Of a stretch of 64,000 bases of DNA, positions 570 through 42,057 are shown in pieces. Position 1 is the stretch's first letter; every line of letters starts with the position of its first letter. Source of the DNA: a bacterium BMS3Bbin08 (GTDB taxonomy: Bacteria; Nitrospirota; Thermodesulfovibrionia; UBA6902; BMS3Bbin08); assembly GCA_002897775.1 (NCBI GenBank), contig BDTR01000019.1, positions 1 to 64,000 on the forward strand, given 5' to 3'. Under the pieces are notes generated by a model. That model did no database searches, was not told where the DNA came from, and saw only the letters and a list, made by a program, of their open reading frames with translations. The translations under genes were made by a program, and so were the position numbers.

Positions 570-667
570 TGGCGGGAGTGTGTGGGAATCGAACCCACCC
601 TGCCCGCTTTTGGCAGGCAACACTGGATTTGAAGTCCAGGAGGGACACCAGAACCCTATGCACTCCC
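570..667 (-). tRNA. selC: tRNA-Sec (anticodon UCA)
   Basis: On the minus strand the sequence starts GGGAGTGC and ends CACTCCC-G-CCA, so discriminator G and the CCA end are encoded (570-572). The anticodon arm reads CTGGACTTCAAATCCAG, the same loop as Escherichia coli selC, with UCA as anticodon. The gene is about 98 nt, with a long extra arm (GTTGCCTGCC paired across AAAA to GCGGGC) and a T arm containing GGTTCGATTCC. Length, long variable arm and anticodon together identify tRNA-Sec. It implies that SelA, SelB and SelD exist elsewhere, and it supports the UGA-containing gene at 38367-38834. Confidence 0.97.
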
Positions 668-3759: not shown

Positions 3760-4839
3760 ATGCTGCACGTTCCAGAACACATAAAAACCATTAAACCGTA
3801 TGTTCCGGGCAAGCCCATAGAGGAACTTGAAAGGGAACTGGGGATCGAAGGGTCAATAAAGCTGGCCTCTAACGAGAGCCCTCTGGGGCCTTCATCCCTC
3901 GCGCTCAGGGTCCTGCGCGAGGGACTGAGCGGTCTGAACAGATACCCTGACGGGTCCTGTTATTTTCTGAGAAATGCTCTTTCCAAAACTCTGGGGACAG
4001 CGCCTGATGAGATACTGTTCGGCAATGGTTCGAACGAGATCATAGAACTGGCGGTAAGGACGTTCATGAAGCCTGGGGACGAGGCGATAATGGCGCACCC
4101 TTCCTTTGTTGTGTATTCAATGATCGTGCAGGCGGCAGGAGGGAAAAACGTTATTGTGCCTCTTAAAGACCTGCGGCACGACCTTGACGCCATGGCGTCG
4201 GAAATAACGGAAAGGACAAAGATAATTTTTATAGCGAACCCCAATAACCCGACCGGCACAATGAATACAAAGGCTGAGATGGAGGCCTTTATGGAGAAGG
4301 TCCCCGAGGGTGTGCTGGTCGCTGTTGACGAGGCATATTATGAGTACGTATCTTCTCCTGACTATGCGGACAGCTTAAAGTACTTCAGACAGGGAAAGGA
4401 TATACTTATATTAAGGACATTTTCAAAAATATACGGGCTCGCGGGCCTGAGGATAGGCTATGGCATAGCAAATATCTTGATAATTACAGAGATGGACAAG
4501 GTCCGGCAGCCGTTTAATGTCAATGCCATGGCCCAGTCAGCCGCGCGTGCCGCGTTAAAAGACAGGGCGCACGTTGAAAAGGCAAAAAAAATAAATGAAC
4601 GAGGCAAAAAGTATCTTTACAAAGAGCTTCGCGCCATGAAGATCAGGTACGTGCCCACAGAGGCAAATTTCATATATATTATCCTGGAAGACGACTCTGC
4701 CTCCGGTTTATACGAAGGCATGCTCAAACAGGGTGTTATTGTCAGGCCCATGGGCAAGCGCGAGATACGCGTAACAATAGGTCTTCCAAAAGAAAATAAA
4801 AGATTTATAGCTGTACTAAAAGAGTTATTGAGTGACTGA
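3760..4839 (+). CDS. hisC: Histidinol-phosphate/aromatic aminotransferase
   Basis: A 359-residue class I/II PLP aminotransferase. Visible features are the substrate/cofactor loop ANPNNPTGT (159-167), Asp190 in VDEAYYEY, and the PLP lysine Lys223 in RTFSKIYGLAGLRIGYG. HisC enzymes act in histidine synthesis, and many also transaminate phenylpyruvate and hydroxyphenylpyruvate. Its place between pheA and aroF suggests that Phe/Tyr formation is its main job here; that is inference from context. The last codons (ELLSD and stop) fall inside an 8-bp tandem repeat. Confidence 0.93.
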   Translation: MLHVPEHIKTIKPYVPGKPIEELERELGIEGSIKLASNESPLGPSSLALRVLREGLSGLNRYPDGSCYFLRNALSKTLGTAPDEILFGNGSNEIIELAVRTFMKPGDEAIMAHPSFVVYSMIVQAAGGKNVIVPLKDLRHDLDAMASEITERTKIIFIANPNNPTGTMNTKAEMEAFMEKVPEGVLVAVDEAYYEYVSSPDYADSLKYFRQGKDILILRTFSKIYGLAGLRIGYGIANILIITEMDKVRQPFNVNAMAQSAARAALKDRAHVEKAKKINERGKKYLYKELRAMKIRYVPTEANFIYIILEDDSASGLYEGMLKQGVIVRPMGKREIRVTIGLPKENKRFIAVLKELLSD

Positions 4840-38366: not shown

Positions 38367-38834
38367 TTAACCGAATTCGCCGTCTATAATTTCCCTTATC
38401 TCTTTTATGCTTTTGCCTTCTTTATACAATTTTGAAGCCCGCCGGGCTTCGTTGAGACAGATACCTCAACCAGCCGCATGAGTGCCTACATAACAACTGA
38501 GAAGACTCTTGTGGTTAAACGGCTCACTATCGCAGAAGCAGTAACATTTCAGACTGTCCAGGACCTGCGGTATGTCTTGTGCTATCTGATAGGCGCCCGC
38601 AATAAACGGATCACTGAATTGTGCGGGCGAGAGGGGTGGTCCTGTCTCACCCCCCCGCAGGGAATTATCATCAACGGCAGATACAGAATCAGATGTTTTC
38701 TTTAATTGCAAGGCAACCACCACCGCGGCAACGGCTAACATCACCGCAATGGCAATAATTATATTTTTAGTGTTTTTATTCTTCTCGGGTTTTCTTTCAG
38801 GTCTGTTTTTTCTGGATTTTTTCTTTCTGGACAC
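38367..38834 (-). CDS. PCYCGC-type membrane-anchored protein, predicted selenoprotein (UGA-encoded Sec123)
   Basis: Read through one in-frame TGA (38468-38466), the gene encodes 155 residues. A basic N-terminus and one transmembrane helix (about 25-43) anchor it. The outer domain carries the CYCFC motif, HKSLLSCYV, then THAAG-Sec-GIC, NEARRA and a final helix GKSIKEIREIIDGEFG. In the PCYCGC family a cysteine stands at the Sec position (H-A-A-G-C-x-x-C), as I recall it. The tail after the TGA is in frame, family-like, and ends with TAA nine bases before the next start. A hairpin with a GGC apical loop lies 22 nt after the TGA, and tRNA-Sec is at 570-667. Otherwise it is a 122-residue truncated protein. 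Function unknown; redox or metal binding is likely. Confidence 0.85.
38434..38450 (-). promoter_or_regulatory. Candidate bacterial SECIS hairpin
   Basis: On the minus strand GAAGCCC-GGC-GGGCTTC is a perfect 7-bp stem with a three-base loop that starts with G. The loop begins 22 nt after the UGA, inside the 16-37 nt window described for bacterial SECIS elements. A TGAG...CTCA pairing lies in the 15-nt spacer. Confidence 0.75.
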
Positions 38835-38930
38835 AGGCTCTTACCTCCTTTTCAGTTCCAGATAATGGTTGTTTAATATACCACAATAACTGCGGTATTT
38901 GCGATTGACAGGGTATTATGCTAAATTTCT

Positions 38931-41289: not shown

Positions 41290-41595
41290 TCAGTCAGCCA
41301 GTTTGTTCAGTATATCCTTTGCCTTTTGATGTTTTTCTCCTTCTTCTTTCATAACGAGTCTGTAGAACTCGCACTTCAGGCAGTTACCCAGTTTCATGGC
41401 AAAGGTCCCCTGGATCACTCCGCCGCAGAGTGTGCCGGCTACAGCCCAGCATGCGCGGCCCGCGTTCTTTCCCTCATTCACGCCGTTGGCGCGGATCTCC
41501 GTAGTGGCTGAGCAGACTCCGAGATCACCAACCTTGGCGCCCCCCGGTTCTCTGCCGCATTTTTTGAACTCCCAGCAGTTTATCTTTTTAGGCAT
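41290..41595 (-). CDS. Two-CW domain protein, copy 1
   Basis: 101 residues with seven cysteines. NCWEFKKCGREPGG opens the domain and RACWAVAGTLC repeats the CW motif; NCLKCEFYRLV closes it. Such two-CW proteins are small, probably metal- or FeS-binding, and are found in anaerobes, often next to signalling genes; the function is unknown. A GGGAGGGGAG ribosome binding site precedes the ATG. A paralogue lies 144 bp away upstream on the same strand. Confidence 0.85.
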   Translation of the reverse strand: MPKKINCWEFKKCGREPGGAKVGDLGVCSATTEIRANGVNEGKNAGRACWAVAGTLCGGVIQGTFAMKLGNCLKCEFYRLVMKEEGEKHQKAKDILNKLAD

Positions 41596-41739: not shown

Positions 41740-42057
41740 TTATTTGTCGCGCGCGTGCTTCAAAAAGTACCTGTGCAGGTCCCTTTTTTCGAGCTCGCGG
41801 AGTATATCGTCCGCTGTCACATACTTGGCTCCTTCCTCTTTAATTACGCGTTTGTAGAACCTGCATTTCTCGCAATCACCGAGTTTTTTGGCATAGCTCC
41901 CCTGTACTTTTCCCCGGCAAAATGTACCAGCCACAGCCCAGCATGAACGGCCGGCATTCTCGCCGTGGTTTATTCCGCCCGCCCTGATGTCAGTAGCAGC
42001 AAGACAGACTCCGAACTCAGAAACTTTCGCTCCGTCAGGCTCTCTCCCGCACTCCAT
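41740..42057 (-). CDS. Two-CW domain protein, copy 2, probable disrupted start
   Basis: 105 residues from the first in-frame ATG, about half identical to copy 1 over the shared domain (MECGREPDGAKV; RSCWAVAGTFC; DCEKCRFYKRV). The frame is open upstream and encodes TKLKNCWEV, the missing first CW motif, but contains no ATG, GTG or TTG before a stop. An ATG-ACT-AAG lies at about 42108 in another frame, so a one-base indel near 42100 would restore a full start. It is either a recently frameshifted gene, an unusual start, or a sequencing error. Confidence 0.75.
   Translation of the reverse strand: MECGREPDGAKVSEFGVCLAATDIRAGGINHGENAGRSCWAVAGTFCRGKVQGSYAKKLGDCEKCRFYKRVIKEEGAKYVTADDILRELEKRDLHRYFLKHARDK

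Follow-up and report, generated by a model that had tools for sequence, protein, structure and literature searches.

Positions 38,367–38,834 of the window (the whole stretch of 64,000 nucleotides that was analysed) raise the question of whether an in-frame TGA on the minus strand ends a short reading frame or is read as selenocysteine (Sec) and, in the latter case, what the completed protein would do. Comparison with relatives makes this, with a probability of about 0.93, a true selenoprotein gene belonging to the known OS_HP4/CYCXC (PCYCGC, PF13798) family. A role in extracytoplasmic redox or metal chemistry is suggested more tentatively, by the surroundings of part of the relatives.

Gene, motifs and family record

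The features of the gene, together with the tRNA gene on which its decoding would depend, are as follows.

38367–38834, minus strand: predicted selenoprotein gene of the OS_HP4/CYCXC (PCYCGC) type, running from a GTG start to a TAA stop and coding for 155 residues, of which number 123 is Sec; it matches PF13798 and NF041379
38466–38468, minus strand: in-frame TGA, read as Sec123 on the comparison of UGA and Cys at this column across relatives
38434–38450, minus strand: SECIS-type stem-loop of 7 bp with loop GGC, assigned from stem conservation and covariation in UGA genes
38370–38465, minus strand: 32-codon tail after the UGA (GIC...EFG), conserved in relatives and predicted to form a helical hairpin (helical in the model of the mature domain, whose pLDDT is 73.4)
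38532–38546, minus strand: CYCXC motif with Cys97, Cys99 and Cys101, invariant columns in the 26 sequences aligned (of 83)
38457–38480, minus strand: HxxxUxxC motif with His119, Sec123 and Cys126, invariant columns when Sec is entered as C
38709–38765, minus strand: likely N-terminal membrane anchor, residues 24–42, judged by eye from the translation; a helix spans residues 20–49 in the low-confidence full-length model
38844–38849, minus strand: AGGAGG, a possible ribosome-binding site 9 nt upstream of the GTG, found by eye
570–667, minus strand: tRNA-Sec gene called by ARAGORN; Rfam RF01852 matches at 574–667 with 72.6 bits (gathering cut-off 47)

The GTG start lies at 38834–38832, the in-frame TGA at 38468–38466 and the TAA at 38369–38367, and nine bases separate the TAA from the ATG of the next ORF. 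Read conventionally, the gene is listed as an ORF of 122 aa at 38466–38834. An earlier note on this DNA had claimed that the frame runs on for 32 codons after the TGA to end nine bases before the next gene, and that a full tRNA-Sec is present in the window; both claims are borne out at the coordinates above. With the TGA read through, the translation has a hydrophobic N-terminal stretch followed by CYCFC at residues 97–101, HKSLLSC ending at residue 114 and HAAGUGIC at residues 119–126. The last position of the HxxxUxxC motif is also Sec, giving UxxU, in 1 of the 26 aligned sequences.

The window protein passes both family models, scoring 47.9 bits against Pfam PF13798 (PCYCGC; gathering cut-off 25) and 116 bits (E 5.9e-34) against NCBIfam NF041379 (OS_HP4, ‘CYCXC family (seleno)protein’; curated cut-off 90). 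The two OS_HP4 motifs, CYCXC and a downstream UxxC, are both present, with Sec predicted at the listed UxxC position, and PF13798 was matched by all 26 members scanned. No family-defining difference from NF041379 is apparent, although the window neighbourhood lacks the TlpA and efflux genes that accompany some relatives. A scan of named genomes turned up a single relative, from Sutcliffiella deserti, which is a Cys member of PF13798: it has Cys at the Sec column, a longer loop before its CxxC and, by eye, a lipobox-like LAGC near its start, whereas the window protein has Sec instead of Cys and a plain hydrophobic anchor.

The hint in the earlier note that this family had gone undescribed as a selenoprotein does not hold. 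OS_HP4 is entered with a UxxC motif in tables of a 2022 review (PMC9312934) and of a 2026 review (PMC13188914); both entries cite Zhang and Gladyshev 2007, and both name it a ‘hypothetical protein’ with no function given in the entry. A novel selenoprotein family is ruled out by NF041379 and these two reviews. Because the reviews already record OS_HP4/CYCXC as a selenoprotein family, the window selenoprotein is not new in kind; the call is sound and adds one member to the recorded family, and its interest lies mainly in function. A passage of a 2026 Parageobacillus paper places a PCYCGC lipoprotein among lipoproteins of unknown function, and passages of a 2008 paper from the Olavius algarvensis selenoprotein literature name OS_HP1 and OS_HP2 only. 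A literature search joining ‘PCYCGC’ with ‘selenoprotein’ found no paper, and a search on selenoproteins in Nitrospirota gave nothing relevant, as judged by its listing.

Decoding of the in-frame UGA

Of the 230 genomes of the class, 85 have an NF041379 match, and in 77 of them a match exceeds the cut-off. The class comparison set comprises the 82 over-cut-off matches other than the window copy; ten under-cut-off matches (L145–L154), which are truncated, decaying or spurious, were excluded from the count at the Sec column. Across the 82 relatives this column is UGA in 77, of which 76 have UxxC and 1, in genome G273, has UxxU with two UGA codons; 4 relatives have CxxC, and the codon of the remaining 1 contains an N. 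Outside the class, 20 sampled genomes had a PF13798 match, and in the 17 loci counted (three were left out) the column is Cys in 16 and UGA in 1. The Cys residues of these 16 loci, and of the 4 within the class, confirm that the TGA stands where a cysteine is expected, as had been claimed from the window alone.

The read-through protein is matched by all 82 class relatives, the worst E being 1.4e-16, and the tail is present in every one of these over-cut-off matches, in frame where the relative has Cys. Mean column conservation over the 26 aligned sequences is 0.62 after the UGA, compared with 0.68 for residues 67–122 and 0.34 for residues 1–66. The earlier note had looked to relatives for Cys or UGA at this column together with a conserved tail, which is the pattern found; homologues that end at the UGA, the contrary prospect, are contradicted by all 82. 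That the UGA is an ordinary stop, the product ending at residue 122 and the tail being a remnant, is thus highly improbable: the 122-aa conventional ORF and the decay of some class copies (L146 has an internal TAG and has lost the motif's last Cys) would accord with it, but the tail is kept, the UGA alternates with Cys, and the genome has complete Sec machinery. An ordinary stop followed by a chance tail is rejected on the Cys/UGA pairing and the conservation of the tail.

Several copies are of note in their own right. Genome G273 carries four family copies, two with Cys, one with UxxC and one with UxxU; in the last (L130, 4175–4237) a second in-frame UGA replaces the final Cys of the motif. 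An origin of the class's Cys forms through loss of the Sec trait finds no support, since SelB scores above the cut-off in each of G174, G273 and G393. Five copies (L148, L149, L150, L151 and L152, each around base 4000 in reading orientation) are beheaded: the CYCXC half is gone, and what is left is a handful of codons followed by the UGA, its stem-loop and a 33-codon tail, with an ambiguous start codon in L149–L151. The beheaded tails of three species of one genus differ by 3–6 synonymous and 1–2 non-synonymous codon changes, so that, small as the numbers are, these tails may still be under selection. On viral contigs, 32 stretches fitted a pattern and zero were confirmed as homologues.

A G among the first two bases of the apical loop is usual in bacterial SECIS elements, and the earlier note had described a hairpin with a G-first loop close behind the UGA. 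The hairpin itself stands, with 7 bp, a 3-nt loop GGC and loop onset 22 nt after the UGA, but a G-first loop is not general in the family: of 78 UGA genes, 3 open the loop with G and 75 with T, though 62 have a G at one of its first two positions. Taken alone, the window hairpin gives a modest signal, with a fraction of 0.040 against codon-resampled versions and a z of −1.67 against dinucleotide shuffles, 13 of 200 of which were as good. The strong evidence for a SECIS element is comparative, and comes from the 63 bases from the UGA, aligned ungapped, in 78 UGA genes (the window gene and 77 others). For codon resampling, 300 synonymous versions were made per gene from an uncurated codon pool, consisting of open frames of at least 150 codons around the gene in all six frames, and the hairpin at nucleotides 16–39 was compared. 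Against the resampled versions it reaches the 5% level or better in 70 of the 78 UGA genes, 8 falling short, and the 1% level or better in 48. The same test on the four Cys genes returned 0.493, 0.427, 0.067 and 0.010, the strong value (0.010) belonging to G174.

Covariation was assessed in 47 of the 78 UGA genes, hand-picked for variety. The 8-pair stem is formed in 92.8% of cells, one of its pairs failing in 14 of the 47 genes, and versions of the stem slid out of place score lower (at most 0.148 vs 0.247). Of 500 shuffles, none reached three of the five measures (cells paired, cells with double changes and the covariation score), and some reached the other two, namely pairs with double changes (10 of 500) and further pair types (32 of 500); kinship alone can push sequences above such shuffles in a structure-free manner.

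SelA, SelB, SelD and tRNA-Sec are all encoded in the window genome. The genes for SelA (621.8 bits) and SelB (376.2 bits) adjoin on contig C48, and two SelD genes pass the cut-off. These selD genes, at C32:17258–18172 and C19:67245–68159, both contain a single in-frame TGA. The complete Sec machinery, the Cys/UGA column, the conserved tail and the conserved SECIS-type stem together support the earlier note in calling this gene a selenoprotein gene. We infer that SelB, bound to the stem-loop just 3′ of the UGA, would bring Sec-tRNA to codon 123. The resulting protein of 155 residues would be anchored in the membrane by its N-terminus, and its helical domain, outside the cytoplasm, would bear CYCXC, HxSLLxC and HxxxUxxC.

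Neighbouring genes and a possible role

The ORFs flanking the gene at 83 loci (the 82 class relatives and the window) were clustered; flanks extended to 4 kb at most, and many were shortened by contig ends. At least one gene for efflux, a two-component system, a YtkA-type protein, the small Cys protein or an ATPase occurs in 47 of the 83 loci. This count, like those that follow, is a raw one from related genomes, uncorrected for a genome-wide background. TolC-, CusB- or CusA-like clusters are found in 24 loci, a two-component gene in 25, YtkA-typed or resembling clusters (5, 9 or 11) in 25 and a Cu-type P-ATPase in 6. Representatives of clusters 2, 4 and 5 are typed by Pfam as CusB-type HlyD_D23, response regulator and YtkA, and those of clusters 6, 7 and 11 as ACR_tran, AhpC-TSA and YtkA; cluster 9 does not match Pfam YtkA, and the names kinase, TolC-like and P-ATPase were assigned by eye from sequence. 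The small Cys protein of cluster 3 is present in 22 loci, among them L072, where it is encoded upstream of the family gene. It has a signal-like start and the motif PYGDxCTRCxxYGxCK; at E 0.001 neither Pfam nor NCBIfam gives a match.

In 4 of the 83 loci the full order on one strand is regulator, kinase, small Cys protein, family gene, YtkA, TolC-like, CusB-like and CusA-like; a two-component gene upstream combined with an efflux gene downstream occurs in 9. Gaps to immediate same-strand neighbours range from −4 to 135 bases.

A TlpA-like thioredoxin gene is located within three ORFs of the family gene in 14 of the 83 loci, as the next ORF in 12 and as the third in 2, and its motif is UxxC in 9 of these and CxxC in 5. 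Like the OS_HP4 proteins beside them, these are proteins with UxxC or CxxC, of a redox type; however, they belong to the AhpC-TSA/thioredoxin family, reach a profile probability of 5.6% vs OS_HP4 and are absent from the window flanks examined. The UGA-bearing TlpA-like genes, with W(A/T)TWUxxC, are those near the family gene in L072, L073, L084, L090, L095, L113, L125, L136 and L141; 8 of the 9 adjoin UGA family forms, and that of L095 adjoins a Cys form.

The neighbours of part of the relatives suggest extracytoplasmic metal handling or redox chemistry. In the favoured role, rated only just short of even odds, the protein would carry out thiol/selenol redox chemistry or handle soft metals (Cu(I)-type) at the outer face of the membrane, perhaps kept in reduced form by TlpA-like thioredoxins. 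The redox or metal role that the earlier note had proposed for Sec123 and its Cys thus gains some support from the neighbours of relatives but none from those of the window copy, which are alcohol-dehydrogenase-like and other unrelated genes; the 10 ORFs scanned there offered no helpful functional clue. For the window copy the role is conjectural, because these neighbours are unrelated and 31 of the 83 loci, the window among them, are without metal-type or regulator clusters and without TlpA. Elsewhere in the window, two adjoining small proteins on the minus strand (41290–41595 and 41740–42057) both match the two-CW domain model NF045718.

Resemblance to CcmH and other readings of the role

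The redox side of this role could be refined, and would not be excluded, if the OS_HP4 family were a distant relative of CcmH (PF03918), that is, a three-helix thiol-disulfide oxidoreductase with Sec first in the redox pair. Profile and model comparisons leave this relationship plausible, if somewhat less likely than not. CcmH was picked by eye, on reading the tail, before any test; the two families have a similar helical hairpin that includes a G-x-S-x-x-E-I turn and, in one register, a CxxC. Among 148 genomes of the phylum 50 CcmH matches were collected, and profile comparison with the best 30 of these, partly from one genus, gave 63.3% for the 82 class sequences and 73.9% for 100 sequences, placing the UxxC column opposite the CxxC of CcmH. 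This score was reached by 0 of 150 column shuffles in either test (top shuffle probability 1.9%); the reversed profile gave 0.4%, and 11 of 12 neighbour families gave 0.6% or less. However, the twelfth neighbour family, an unrelated small Cys protein, reached 27.4% vs the OS_HP4 family, and a first comparison, with three near-relative CcmH sequences (of 4 matches), gave 2.3%. The alignment also requires a 13-residue gap; by eye, a register free of gaps would not set UxxC against CxxC.

The structural comparison is likewise divided. The mature-domain model was built with two sequences in its alignment, and its top PDB fold match is the N-terminal domain of E. coli CcmH (2kw0; prob 0.87, TM 0.50/0.56), but the E for this match is 0.86 and none of the five PDB fold matches reached 0.001. 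The full-length model has a pLDDT of 60.1, and confidence in the two models is low to middling. The window protein has no match to Pfam CcmH at its cut-off, and CcmH is absent among the 24 families matched by the 26 members. A PDB sequence search returned no CcmH chain, and its single candidate for a solved relative, at E 0.26, is not meaningful. Additionally, OS_HP4 proteins have CYCXC and HxSLLxC, neither of which was seen in the CcmH sequences examined. CcmH may be taken as a weak lead and not as a family assignment.

A structural metal site is the other alternative: CYCXC, the two His, Cys114 and UxxC would bind a metal ion or cluster, with no redox turnover. The three Cys of CYCXC and the further invariant His, Cys and Sec/Cys residues would suit such a site, as would the metal-efflux genes near part of the relatives, but UxxC and the TlpA neighbours, some with a UxxC of their own, suit redox chemistry at least equally, and a purely structural site appears possible though rather doubtful.

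Carried further, the redox reading would make OS_HP4/PCYCGC a distant CcmH-type oxidoreductase of thiols that took on selenocysteine and works in copper-type efflux or cuproprotein assembly at the cell surface, paired with TlpA-like thioredoxins that are often selenoproteins themselves, and mini-selenoproteins (some 43–52 residues, reduced to UGA, SECIS and tail) would still be under selection in some lineages; this combination is speculative and, as a whole, unlikely. The neighbours of the relatives and the CcmH likeness lead to a testable idea, the use of selenium in extracytoplasmic metal or cytochrome-type redox chemistry, set in a class in which SelB is over the cut-off in 206 of 230 genomes.
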